In this document: positions 50,200 through 54,293 of the stretch, piece by piece | Numbering within the stretch: position 1 is the first letter of the stretch | Layout: every line of letters starts with the position of its first letter | Source of the DNA: Sulfuricurvum sp. | GTDB taxonomy: Bacteria > Campylobacterota > Campylobacteria > Campylobacterales > Sulfurimonadaceae | Direction of reading: 5' to 3' | DNA: 64,000 bases | NCBI GenBank assembly: GCA_030693335.1 | Contig: JAUYAU010000011.1 | Coordinates: forward strand, 186,001 to 250,000 | Made by a program: the position numbers and the translations under genes | The notes under the pieces: model-generated | Seen by the model: only the letters and a program-made list of their open reading frames with translations | What the model was told of the DNA's origin: nothing | Database searches by the model: none

Positions 50200-53100
50200 C
50201 TATTTTTTCTTCTCATCATCCATCATCCATAAAAATGGATAGGTGACTGTTCGTTTTAAGATATTGAACGGTATCGTAATAATCTCTTTTGCAATTGCCG
50301 TTTCTACGACAGGATCGCTCAGTTTCCCTTTTAGATTTACTGTTGTACTTACAGAACCGTGATCTCCAAAAAGTATGTAACCCACCATAGGAATACGTCC
50401 CAGTTGTGATCCTAAATCACTTTTCAGGGTAAGAGTTCCTTGAATAGAATCCTCTTTGAAGTTTACATTTCCCTCGCCATTTATTTTGAGCTCAGGTGAA
50501 TTCAGAGTGAAATTTTCAACATGAAATTTGTGATTACGGAAAGTATAATGGCTATAGACCTCTTTAATGGGAAGTCCATTTGTATTGTAATTTGGAAGAG
50601 AAAAAGTAGCCAGCGATGGGACCGTATTGATAAACGATAAAACATTATTGAGGAGTTTATATTCTTTTAGGACAGTGTTCTCAATGCGCATAATCCCTTC
50701 AAAATCATCTACTTGACCGCCCAATTCAAAAGACATTACACCGCCTTGAAAGTCACTAAAAGCAAATAAGTGTTCCATAAAGATATCGTTAAAATGACTT
50801 CCTTTAACATGATACAATCCATTTCTCATTTGCAGGTCTGCCCAGCCTGAACCATGAGTCATACGAGCATCCAGATCGTCTCCTGTTAACGTAGCAGTTA
50901 AAGTATCAGCAATTATTTTTCTATTCTTCATGAGGTAGAGATGGGTATTCGTTGCATTGAGATATATGGGTACAGGTTCAGAGCCGTCTTGAGACTTTTT
51001 TTCTGTAGGAATATCAAGCCATTTTGCCAGCTCAGACGCATTAATACCCATGTTGTTGGCACGGATATTAATGGATTTGTCATAATTTATTTTTAGACGG
51101 TCATTAACTCTGATGGAGGATTTCCCATTTTGATACGAACCGCTAAACCGATACGATGAAAGGCTCTGTTCATTAACCACCATCAAACGATACGGGTAAT
51201 CTATAATACCATTAAAAGTATATCGTCGTTGTTTCGGATAATAAAAAAGATCAGCATAGCCGTGAGTGATTTGATATTGGTGCAGCAAAGGAGAATTATT
51301 ACTTAAAAGTGATATATCAGGGACGGTTATTTTCCATCCCTGGCTCATCGTTGTAAAATCAATCCCCAATGATTGCGAATGAAGCGTTAGATGTTCATGT
51401 GCAGCATTGATAGAAAAATTTTGATTTTTATGGAGATTGATATAGCTACTGATTGTTTGGTTTAAAGGTATCATGTTGGTGAGTGATATGAAGCCTTGAT
51501 TAAGCTTCCATAGATACTCTCCAGAAATGCTTCCCTCAAGAAAAGTTTCTATTCTTATTTTGATATCGTCGAATACCAGCTTGTTGTCGCTGGCACGTAT
51601 ATGAAGGGGAGAGAGTGAAAAGTCCTGCCCGTTAAGCTTCCAGGAAGAAGCGGCATTGGAGGTTATGTTAACGCCGTCCTGATCACTGACGAAAGTGAGT
51701 GCATAGTTTTTACTTGATAATAAAAGATCTTGTACATTAAATTTATCAAGTCCAAGTTGAAGCCACCAATATTCAGGTGAAATTTTTCCTTCGAAAGTCC
51801 CCTGAATCTTATGGGGAACAGTAAAATGCAATTTTGGAATGACTGTGGAAGCGTTTTTATAGTCATAGGGTATGGTAAAGCCTTCAATGTTAACCGTTTC
51901 ATCCAATACTTTCCACTGTGTTGGCGCTATTTGAAGTGTGTCATGAGTGGGGCCAATATTATAAATTGCGATTGTTTTGAGTGGATGGGTTAATAACGAC
52001 AATATCGCTGGGTCACCTGTAGGTGTAAAAGAATAGGGGAGTATTTTTACACTTCCTTTTTCTGCATGGGCATCATAATGACCTTCCACCTGTGCATGCA
52101 ATGTATTTTTATACTTAGTATCAAATCCGCTGAAAAATACTTTATTAGTGTCAAGTGTTACGATTCCACCCATAGTCTGAAACAAAAAGTTTTCCAATTG
52201 TAATTCAGATTTTCCGGGTATAAACCTCCCTTTTGCTGTGGTATTAAAATTGTTAAGATCAATTGAGAGGTTTAAATCAACATTGCATAACCCGCTGTTT
52301 TGACGAATAGGAACAGTGATTTTATAATAATGCAGCAAATTCAGGATGTTGTCATTTAATTGTGCGCGATTTGTTAATATATAAGCATTAAGAAGTATGT
52401 TTTTGGGATTGAAATCAATAAAGAGATGACTATTTTGCGTTGGAATAGTATAAAAAGAGCCATTTAACGGATAAATACCCAAGACGCCATTTTTAAAAAC
52501 AAGGTCTACTTTTTTAGCAATGATAGGAGCAATTGTAGGTGCAAAGGTATATTCAGCACCGTCTACGCTGGCACGTACAAAAAGAGTGTGTAAAAGTTTC
52601 TGCGGCTGATCGTATAAAAAACTGCCATGGCATTCGTGAAGAGTCAATCGGCTAGCTTTTGCATAATGAGTTATCCAAGGACGGGTTTGAAGCGGTACTT
52701 CAAAAAAATCCACCAACTCGTCTAATGTATTGAAAGGTTTATCTGCTTTAACACTAATACGGAGTTTTTTCTGATCTCCTAGGGCATAGGCTTTTAGAAT
52801 TGGGGTATTTGGCAATGCAAAGCTTCCCCATGCATTTAGCTTTTGCTCTTGTAAGTAAAGATGTAAAAGTCCATGGACCTGTGCTGCTGATTCATTTTTG
52901 GAAGAAAGAGTTAGCTTAAATTTGGAAGGTGTTATCGCGAAATAACCATTCATACGGATTTTTCCCATACGAACATCGATCGTTCCTAGAGAATTTTTGT
53001 GATAGTGCAGTGAAACTTCTGTATTTTGATAGCGGATAGCTTTGATGTCGATAGAAGCAACCCAACGCTGCATCCAATCAATACGGTCGGTTATTTTAGA

Positions 53101-53358
53101 AAGAGGTTTGAGCGTAATGGGTTCATTATCGCGATGAAGTTCATTTAAGTCAATTAAAGAGGCAGTGATGGTGAGCCTATTATCCCATTTTAGATATAAT
53201 CTTTCAAATTTTATATCCCCTAATTTGAGATGAGAAATGGTAAAACCTTCTAATAAAGCGACAAAAATAAAAAAGCCTGCAAGAAAGAGCAAAAGTAAAA
53301 AAACAAGTAAATTAAAGTGGATTCTTTTAATTATTTTAATGATGGCTTTATCGTTCAT
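50200..53358 (-). CDS. AsmA-like (YhdP/DUF3971-type) envelope protein
   Basis: 1052 residues. N-terminal basic stretch and membrane anchor (MNDKAIIKIIKRIHFNLL, VFLLLLFLAGFFIFVALL), then a very long beta-rich periplasmic part made of repeated strands. The C-terminus (GNVNFKEDSIQGTLTLKSD, GRIPMVGYILFG) matches the AsmA-like C-terminal domain. Such proteins form lipid-conducting grooves between the membranes. The first 122 bp overlap the start of mltG on the other strand. Confidence 0.85.
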   Translation of the reverse strand: MNDKAIIKIIKRIHFNLLVFLLLLFLAGFFIFVALLEGFTISHLKLGDIKFERLYLKWDNRLTITASLIDLNELHRDNEPITLKPLSKITDRIDWMQRWVASIDIKAIRYQNTEVSLHYHKNSLGTIDVRMGKIRMNGYFAITPSKFKLTLSSKNESAAQVHGLLHLYLQEQKLNAWGSFALPNTPILKAYALGDQKKLRISVKADKPFNTLDELVDFFEVPLQTRPWITHYAKASRLTLHECHGSFLYDQPQKLLHTLFVRASVDGAEYTFAPTIAPIIAKKVDLVFKNGVLGIYPLNGSFYTIPTQNSHLFIDFNPKNILLNAYILTNRAQLNDNILNLLHYYKITVPIRQNSGLCNVDLNLSIDLNNFNTTAKGRFIPGKSELQLENFLFQTMGGIVTLDTNKVFFSGFDTKYKNTLHAQVEGHYDAHAEKGSVKILPYSFTPTGDPAILSLLTHPLKTIAIYNIGPTHDTLQIAPTQWKVLDETVNIEGFTIPYDYKNASTVIPKLHFTVPHKIQGTFEGKISPEYWWLQLGLDKFNVQDLLLSSKNYALTFVSDQDGVNITSNAASSWKLNGQDFSLSPLHIRASDNKLVFDDIKIRIETFLEGSISGEYLWKLNQGFISLTNMIPLNQTISSYINLHKNQNFSINAAHEHLTLHSQSLGIDFTTMSQGWKITVPDISLLSNNSPLLHQYQITHGYADLFYYPKQRRYTFNGIIDYPYRLMVVNEQSLSSYRFSGSYQNGKSSIRVNDRLKINYDKSINIRANNMGINASELAKWLDIPTEKKSQDGSEPVPIYLNATNTHLYLMKNRKIIADTLTATLTGDDLDARMTHGSGWADLQMRNGLYHVKGSHFNDIFMEHLFAFSDFQGGVMSFELGGQVDDFEGIMRIENTVLKEYKLLNNVLSFINTVPSLATFSLPNYNTNGLPIKEVYSHYTFRNHKFHVENFTLNSPELKINGEGNVNFKEDSIQGTLTLKSDLGSQLGRIPMVGYILFGDHGSVSTTVNLKGKLSDPVVETAIAKEIITIPFNILKRTVTYPFLWMMDDEKKK

Positions 53359-54232
53359 AGTTTACCTGTTTACTACAGTTACATCACCAAAAATAGTCTA
53401 TATACCGAAGGGTTCTGTTTTTAAAAGTATATCACACCTGCAAAATAATGGTGTTAATCTTTACAAGATAGATGCCATAATCCTTAGGTTGATCGGTCAT
53501 CCACAGCAAGGTTGGATTGATTTAAAAGAAGAAAAATCAACACGTATAGAGTACCTGTATAAACTTACAACTGCAAAGGCTGTAACTCAAACCATTACGT
53601 TGATACCTGGAGAAACGACAGTCGTATTTTTAGAACAGATGGCTCAGCAGTTGAATTTGAATGCAAGAAAATTAAAAGATGCCTATACGGATAGAACCTC
53701 AGTACCGGAAGGAATGTTTGTCCCCGATACCTATAGTATTCCCAAAGAAATTAATGAAGAAAGGCTGATAAGCTTTTTGTTAGATCAGTCAGCACAAAAA
53801 CACAGGGCTATGGCAACAAAGCTTTTGGGTAGTTATGATGAAGCAAAATGGTTACAATTAGTAACACTTGCATCCGTTATACAAAAAGAGGCGGCTTCCG
53901 TAGAAGATATGCCAATGGTGAGCTCTGTAATTCAAAATCGATTAAAAAAGAACATGCGATTGCAAATGGACGGTACTTTGAACTATGGTGAATACTCTCA
54001 TCAAAAAGTAACAGCAGCACGTATACGTAGTGATAAAACAACCTATAACACCTATAAACACCGAGGTTTGCCTAAGGATCCTGTTTGCAATGTCAGTTAT
54101 GCAGCACTGGATGCAGCTATCAATCCAAAGCATACAGACTACCTTTATTTCGTACGTGGAAAAAATGGTGAACATATTTACAGTAGTTACTTTTCTACAC
54201 ACCATAAAAACATACTAAATGCTACAAAATGA
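53237..54232 (+). CDS. mltG: Endolytic murein transglycosylase MltG
   Basis: 331 residues. A Lys-rich cytoplasmic head (NKATKIKKPARKSKSKK) leads into a membrane helix (WILLIILMMALSFIVYLF), then the YceG domain: catalytic Glu in SVIQKEAAS, VIQNRLKKNMRLQMDGTLNYG, and the C-terminal GLPKDPVCNVSYAALDAAINP signature. It cuts nascent glycan and limits strand length. The start at 53237 lies 122 bp inside the opposite gene; starting later, at 53339, would destroy the helix. Confidence 0.93.
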   Translation: MVKPSNKATKIKKPARKSKSKKTSKLKWILLIILMMALSFIVYLFTTVTSPKIVYIPKGSVFKSISHLQNNGVNLYKIDAIILRLIGHPQQGWIDLKEEKSTRIEYLYKLTTAKAVTQTITLIPGETTVVFLEQMAQQLNLNARKLKDAYTDRTSVPEGMFVPDTYSIPKEINEERLISFLLDQSAQKHRAMATKLLGSYDEAKWLQLVTLASVIQKEAASVEDMPMVSSVIQNRLKKNMRLQMDGTLNYGEYSHQKVTAARIRSDKTTYNTYKHRGLPKDPVCNVSYAALDAAINPKHTDYLYFVRGKNGEHIYSSYFSTHHKNILNATK

Positions 54233-54293
54233 AACATATTCAGCTCTTTTTACAGCTATCAATGTAAACAAAGTATAAATATATTCAAGTAAG

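Follow-up and report, generated by a model that had tools for sequence, protein, structure and literature searches.

The mltG gene, encoding an endolytic transglycosylase, and a gene encoding a YhdP/AsmA-like protein very probably form a genuine and ancient dual-coding interlock, in which two genes for inner-membrane proteins share their 5′ ends on opposite strands. This reading is drawn from sequence comparison, and the starts of both transcription and translation are inferred. What the comparison shows is the overlap itself, its fixed phase, selection on both frames and fixed -10 boxes that follow the genes they presumably drive. The arrangement stands out by its age, by encoding two anchors in one fixed phase and by promoters that are embedded in each other's genes. 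It was studied in a stretch of 64,000 nts (hereafter the window; contig JAUYAU010000011.1, positions 186,001 to 250,000) from a Sulfuricurvum sp. genome of 2.17 Mb, where the gene order is secA, a permease gene whose lolC-like name is inferred, the yhdP-like gene (minus strand), mltG (plus strand), and the genes for isocitrate dehydrogenase and malate dehydrogenase.

As defined by its open reading frame and domain models, mltG (YceG family, 331 aa) occupies 53237..54232 of the plus strand and opens with the ATG at 53237. Its product scores 198.5 bits against PF02618 (Pfam YceG, cut-off 32.4) and 124 bits against TIGR00247 (cut-off 103.4), and is 82-85% identical to its nearest named relatives (Sulfuricurvum metagenome genomes) and 91% identical to one Epsilonproteobacteria bacterium record. 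The yhdP/AsmA-like gene (50200..53358, minus strand, 1052 aa), likewise defined by its frame and a domain model, starts at the ATG at 53358, and its product scores 81.4 bits against PF13116 (Pfam YhdP, cut-off 46). Both proteins are ordinary members of their families, MltG (PF02618) with a YceG domain and a single N-terminal membrane helix, YhdP (PF13116) by its domain and anchor plan (YhdP profile, N-terminal helix by hydropathy); the difference lies in their head-to-head arrangement. YhdP of E. coli acts in phospholipid transport between membranes, a function which for the present homologue is carried over as background only.

The two coding sequences overlap head to head over 122 bp (53237..53358, both strands, from the reading-frame coordinates) in phase 123:213; the coordinates and strands given for this overlap in the initial annotation proved exact. 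The cytoplasmic head of MltG, rich in Lys and Arg, is encoded by 53240..53317 (plus strand), the complement of which encodes the YhdP helix, while the MltG transmembrane anchor (53318..53371, plus strand; best 19-residue mean hydropathy 2.57) faces the YhdP head. On the minus strand, YhdP begins with the basic head MNDKAIIKIIKRIHFN (53311..53358), followed by the transmembrane anchor LLVFLLLLFLAGFFIFVALL (53251..53310), recognized by its hydropathy. Hence each basic head lies opposite the other protein's helix and both anchors are encoded by the shared DNA, as first described.

In phase 123:213, the third codon position faces the third, and the first faces the second. TTN codons (Phe/Leu) are consequently paired with AAN (Lys/Asn), CTN (Leu) with AGN (Arg/Ser) and GTN (Val) with ACN (Thr), while ATN (Ile/Met), GCN (Ala) and CGN (Arg) face themselves and TCN (Ser) faces GAN (Asp/Glu). 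Because of these pairings, a Leu/Phe helix can lie opposite a head of Lys, Arg (as AGR) and Ser (as AGY), and a head of Ile and Lys, such as IIKIIKR, opposite a helix rich in Ile. With Arg as CGN, or Ser as TCN, a charge would enter the helix of the opposite protein; a sharp test of selection is thus possible, because AGR and CGN, like AGY and TCN, are synonymous in the first frame. According to the accessible passages of a study of overlapping pairs (PMC2174442), whose phase notation is used here, this phase couples the two informative codon positions and is the least robust; that work gives pair counts and, in those passages, follows no single pair. At mltG/yhdP, the phase pairs Lys/Asn with Phe/Leu and Arg/Ser with Leu, which suits two anchors.

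The initial annotation had held that the complementarity of AAA/AAG with TTT/CTT lets basic heads and hydrophobic anchors mirror each other. The code does permit this, as the phase pairings show, but the mirror is not automatic: of 76 ordinary signal-anchor genes, only one lies opposite a stop-free antisense frame of helix-grade hydropathy in phase 123:213, as do 20 of 544 other genes, and the mirror was rejected as a general property of signal anchors. The same counts bear on the possibility that the whole arrangement is an artefact of composition, an A-rich head and a T-rich helix automatically resembling a helix and a head in reverse. Antisense frames in phase 123:213 are indeed more hydrophobic on average (0.96 vs 0.45 and 0.33). 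However, the antisense frame at mltG/yhdP reaches a mean hydropathy of 2.88, a helix-grade frame is found in only the one signal-anchor gene, and mltG genes lacking yhdP show antisense stops or polar frames. In ten loci without a yhdP-like frame at the junction (L023, L024, L026, L066, L067, L114, L126, L130, L137 and L173; L025 not included), stops interrupt the antisense frame in all ten over the 50 codons examined, and in L170, L171 and L174 this frame is polar and also contains stops. We give this explanation almost no credence.

The arrangement was followed through 174 loci which, after removal of 14 duplicates and 5 loci outside the Campylobacterota, left 155 unique mltG loci. A divergent gene, defined as an open reading frame of at least 400 codons, or 300 if running off the stretch, is present at 138 of these, and the overlap phase is the same (third position facing third) in 136 of the 138. 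Minus-strand frames taken from ten loci across the order all exceeded the Pfam YhdP cut-off (10/10), and in the family of the window the YhdP start mostly falls at the identical MltG codon. Mapped on a tree of the 155 MltG sequences, presence or absence of the overlap requires 7 changes: family f6, which has no overlap, L170/L171 and seven Sulfuricurvum genomes that have lost yhdP are nested among overlapping relatives, and L023-L026, L173 and L174 stand apart, most of them on long branches. Sampling was not random, with 31 loci from a scan of named genomes, all 36 genus matches, and 80 of 245 order-level matches plus 28 of the phylum-level matches hand-picked for genus spread, apart from 8 among them that were chosen automatically, so that the set leans to Sulfuricurvum. 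The codon, ribosome-site and synonym tests described below used the 117 loci in which the genes have ordinary starts and overlap by 40 bp or more (L062, L166 and L175, with odd far starts, were excluded), and 65 representatives of less than 70% identity agreed when tested for codon choice, ribosome sites, resampling and -10 score.

Codon choice within the overlap responds to the opposite frame. In MltG, the ratio of AGN to other codons is 87:16 for Arg in the overlap vs 372:472 outside (p 1.6e-15; 117 loci), and 102:68 vs 632:1051 for Ser. In YhdP, Arg behaves similarly (38:16 vs 639:921), and Ser taken over the whole overlap shows no codon shift (80:119 vs 1768:2765, p 0.77; 117 loci in each case). 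Resolved by what lies on the other strand, MltG Arg opposite the YhdP helix is AGR in 79 of 79 cases (79:0), vs 44% elsewhere in mltG, and Ser gives 67:0 in the same 117 loci, while opposite the YhdP head the ratios are 8:16 for Arg and 35:68 for Ser. Reciprocally, YhdP codons opposite the MltG helix give 28:1 for Arg and 65:56 for Ser, and otherwise 10:15 and 15:63. Because the helix segment was chosen by hydropathy, the identical choice was repeated on 76 control signal-anchor genes; these gave 19:33 for Arg and 33:28 for Ser, and the choice of segment was rejected as the cause of the 79:0 ratio. N-terminal codon bias was likewise rejected as the cause of AGR use, since 628 ordinary genes, taken from the window and 40 control stretches, show little of it (Arg 0.36 vs 0.31, Ser 0.39 vs 0.41).

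Synonymous recoding gave a concordant result. When mltG was recoded in the 65 representatives, the hydropathy of the YhdP helix fell from 2.85 to 2.59 (p 4e-10) and the yhdP ATG survived in only 21% of the recodings, and recoding of yhdP lowered MltG hydropathy from 2.68 to 2.51 (p 6e-5). Third-position change is suppressed in MltG codons 1-40 in Sulfuricurvum (p 0.0016); in the leader (MltG codons 42-60), such suppression was not significant (p 0.41-0.48). Judged from these sequence patterns, both frames are under selection in the shared DNA. A comparison of the two N-termini in relatives for constraint in both frames had been proposed at the outset, and codon choice and recoding, each with controls, revealed that constraint.

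Each start codon is preceded by a putative ribosome site within the codons of the other gene. For yhdP, the Shine-Dalgarno-like AGGT at 53364..53367 (minus strand, within mltG codons) has a predicted anti-SD duplex of -3.8 kcal/mol, and over the 117 loci the pairing is clear, with a mean of -3.46 vs -0.77 kcal/mol in the control. For mltG, the weak Shine-Dalgarno-like stretch at 53227..53236 (plus strand, within yhdP codons) reaches -2.7 kcal/mol, and the mean pairing is weak (-2.48 vs -1.33 kcal/mol in the control; 117 loci).

Long divergent overlaps are open to the objection that one gene truly begins later and that the overlap exists only in the annotation. This was the conclusion of Palleja et al. 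2008 (PMC2478687), in which, as far as the available passages go, all 75 divergent overlaps longer than 60 bp in 338 prokaryotic genomes were classed as misannotations and a rule for flagging them was proposed. Those cases resemble the present one in being annotated opposite-strand genes with 5′ ends overlapping by more than 60 bp. In contrast to the start-codon errors that the passages describe, the mltG/yhdP overlap is conserved throughout an order with a locked phase and has the backing of codon choice and promoters. Ahead of residue 50, the mltG frame of the window offers no ATG, GTG or TTG other than M1, M35 and M36, and the later yhdP starts after the ATG at 53358 are a TTG at 53292, within its helix, and then an ATG at 53073. 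Every one of these alternatives (M35, M36, TTG 53292 and ATG 53073) cuts an anchor, so the 122 bp cannot be reduced with standard start codons. The overlap was therefore also measured between the latest start on each side that spares the helix: even by this rule it exceeds zero in 134 of the 135 loci in which both starts were found (median 68 bp), with at least 40 bp in 120 loci and at least 60 bp in 78, and only L116 is without a forced overlap. Together with the response of codons in the overlap to the opposite frame and with ribosome-site energies at the inferred starts that exceed the control, this leaves an artefact of start assignment very unlikely.

The observation that lends the artefact some support is that the exact overlap length varies, because the mltG start differs in sister species of Sulfuricurvum. 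The mltG ATG of the window's clade (residue 1) has been replaced by ATA, ATT or ATC in L048, L050, L053, L054 and further sister loci of Sulfuricurvum, and a GTG or ATG ten codons further on (residue 11) is kept and fits better; in these loci the MltG start has probably moved, giving an overlap of 92 bp. As to chance, a simple open reading frame caller that takes the longest frame found overlaps in 8 of 82 divergent neighbour pairs in about 864 kb (40 control stretches and the window). The four longest of the other divergent overlaps, inspected individually, look like over-extended starts in our judgement, without a formal test. The mltG/yhdP overlap is confirmed as real and, with its phase kept in 136 of 138 loci, as more than chance.

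The promoters of both genes also appear to be written in the coding sequence of the partner. A sigma-70 scan requiring a -35 element found no useful box near either start and missed both -10 boxes, and the codons concerned were spotted by eye before the order-wide test. The candidate yhdP box, recognized by third-position conservation, is the extended -10 TGATATACT at 53426..53434 (minus strand), within mltG codons 64-66 (S-I-S), from which a yhdP RNA start near 53419 (minus strand) is predicted. In 29 Sulfuricurvum mltG genes, codons 62-66 hardly vary at their third positions, and all 29 carry an extended -10 box on the minus strand there, either TGATATACT or TGCTATACT. Promoters in Campylobacter and Helicobacter usually have this extended -10 form. 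Across the order, a perfect TGNTATAAT often stands at the identical MltG codons, and the box matches at 7-8 of 8 positions at the exact place in 120 of the 136 loci that have yhdP in its usual phase, vs 1 of 19 others (p 2.5e-13), the latter including L170 and L171, in which yhdP is present without interlock. It is absent from the fixed place in 16 of the 136 loci, for example L156-L163. The real sites score 7.46, vs a mean of 5.75 after synonymous recoding of mltG (117 loci). That TGNTATAAT is a promoter signal in these genomes is supported by its distribution: 60 of 191 upstream gaps contain it with at least 7 of 8 matches, vs 6 of 163 stretches antisense to coding sequences.

The candidate mltG box, TATAAT at 53195..53200 (plus strand), lies within yhdP codons 53-55 (R-L-Y), was likewise recognized by third-position conservation and predicts an mltG RNA start near 53207 (plus strand). 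The L-Y motif used to place the box was not found in 24 of the 136 loci examined; in the remaining 112, the box reads TATAAT in 79, TACAAT in 18 and TATACT in 3. The yhdP Leu codon within it is TTA in 81 of 102 cases, vs 24% elsewhere in yhdP (p 7.6e-28). Searched for without a fixed position, the box shows only a modest gain over recoded sequence (6.26 vs 5.46). Given the fixed boxes, in 120 of 136 loci for yhdP and as TATAAT in 79 of 112 for mltG, the promoters very probably do lie inside the opposite genes, as had been suggested, although no transcript map is available.

Two further elements were noted within mltG. An inverted repeat, GGTTACAATTAGTAACA, at about codons 205-210 (window positions 53850-53866) has near-invariant third positions in most of the 29 Sulfuricurvum genes. 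In its exact form, GTTAC-N5-GTAAC, the repeat has a single copy in nearly every Sulfuricurvum mltG locus, also where yhdP is missing, and is present in 4 other loci; it resembles an operator embedded in a coding region. Likewise, the last 16 codons of mltG (about 54182-54235), ahead of the isocitrate dehydrogenase gene (54336), have a third-position identity of 0.94 over codons 316-330 in the 29 genes and are probably an isocitrate dehydrogenase promoter or regulatory element.

Natural losses of yhdP provide a separate view of the two boxes. Seven Sulfuricurvum genomes carry no intact yhdP at mltG; whole-genome searches with the window YhdP, which may miss distant homologues, found remnants in three and nothing in four. 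The yhdP box inside mltG has decayed in all seven (0/7 score at least 7), and the mltG box is kept in six, as TATAAT in four and as TATACT and TATAGT in the others, and is gone in L067. In L045 (identical in sequence to L008), yhdP is deleted except for 54 bp between the lolC-like stop codon and the mltG ATG, and these carry GGTATAAT, containing TATAAT, the presumed mltG -10 box, and the leader. Each box thus tends to be retained while its presumed target gene survives, whichever protein is encoded over it; the seven losses come from one genus with overlapping ancestry and are not fully independent. Stages of yhdP decay can also be read: the start codon has become Thr (L039), GTG (L055) or Ile (L061), an early stop has arisen in L065, and in these four loci the first 30-80 yhdP codons, opposite or near mltG, are still partly readable. 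In family f6 (L114, L126, L130 and L137), mltG has no yhdP neighbour and no match to the window YhdP was found anywhere in the four genomes.

Relatives with separated genes and unrelated N-termini had been named in the initial annotation as a finding that would refute the overlap. Such relatives do occur: two sister-species loci, L170 and L171, keep yhdP without the interlock phase and without the box inside mltG, the yhdP ATG of L171 being clearly separated from the mltG ATG by 132 bp, and other relatives lack the gene. However, these are derived exceptions, without the antisense helix and without the yhdP promoter embedded in mltG. Since L170 and L171 keep the gene pair without the phase, the interlock is not indispensable.

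If the inferred starts are correct, about 240 bp (53195-53434) would hold, for each of the two genes, the -10 box, the ribosome-binding site, the start codon and the signal anchor, with both strands in use at once. Transcription of mltG would begin from the box inside yhdP and that of yhdP from the extended box inside mltG, so that the promoters would face each other and the two mRNAs would be complementary over about 210 nts at their 5′ ends, spanning both ribosome sites and both start codons. With lower confidence, as there are no expression data, face-to-face transcription (polymerase collision) and 5′-5′ RNA pairing might let each gene damp the other, which would tie the supply of MltG, a cutter of glycan strands, to that of YhdP, a lipid-bridge protein. 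Protein synthesis from the inferred starts, the 5′ overlap of the mRNAs and mutual antisense control are all inferences made without RNA-seq, Ribo-seq or N-terminal peptide data.

Persistence of the arrangement may need no benefit, as an interlocked pair could be separated only by loss of yhdP or by a rare rearrangement. We put at about even odds that the interlock is real and dual-coding without any regulatory role, a frozen accident which point mutations cannot undo. The observed escapes through loss of yhdP, with one lineage (L170, L171) that has separated the genes and kept both, fit such a trap, of which the fixed phase and boxes are the expected trace. Against this, the positions of both facing promoters have been conserved across the order, and an interaction is to be expected between promoters that face each other and yield complementary 5′ RNA. 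The alternative, an excludon-like antisense switch in which facing promoters and 5′-5′ RNA pairing set MltG and YhdP levels in opposition and balance wall cutting against lipid transport, is possible but rather unlikely on present evidence. The two -10 boxes do flank both starts and the predicted complementary stretch is about 210 nts, but there are no expression data in its support. An H. pylori G27 fragment upstream of a DUF3971 gene was shown to drive high GFP in isolation (PMC10353542), and the available passages of that report, which also describe nth, duf and mltG as associated genes in some of the helicobacters, do not state the position of the fragment relative to mltG; the result fits a live promoter and, in those passages, is silent on interference. 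Only a single sampled lineage has pulled the genes apart and retained both, and for this reason we consider a selected switch no more likely than a frozen accident.

In the excludons described so far, a long 5′ leader extends over the neighbour gene. The mltG/yhdP pair differs from them in that the start, anchor and promoter of each gene lie inside the coding sequence of the other. The likeness, as far as the accessible parts of two reports allow (PMC10936155, PMC4179725), consists of oppositely transcribed units with complementary 5′ RNA, which at mltG/yhdP is predicted. Protein-coding frames on both strands are also known from E. coli O157:H7, where ano (PMC5960689), laoB (PMC5810103) and asa (PMC6294744) were recognized from RNA-seq or Ribo-seq; by the passages available, these are short frames antisense to an annotated gene, in contrast to two large, widely conserved genes that share their 5′ ends. 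A literature search, outside which most subscription papers lay, found no description of the head-to-head mltG/yhdP arrangement. The locus presumably corresponds to the locus tags Cj0529c in C. jejuni and HP0586/HP0587 in H. pylori. Two C. jejuni papers (PMC11955535, PMC10151779) contain nothing on it in the passages available, and a C. jejuni proteome study (PMC11123243) records, in the part accessible, a change in MltG abundance.

The interest of the locus is that of a long divergent overlap conserved across an order, with codon-level evidence for both frames and with promoters that track their own genes through natural losses. Rules that trim start codons could remove real membrane anchors in these genomes. 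The interlock offers a clean model for dual coding, for promoters written in coding sequence and for the question of whether two envelope genes are coupled by facing promoters and complementary 5′ RNA. More speculatively, and with a probability that we judge low, a compact two-way switch of about 240 bp may have been kept through the diversification of the Campylobacterales, in which promoter collision and 5′-5′ pairing would oppose MltG to YhdP and so link the length of wall glycans to the supply of lipids to the outer membrane.
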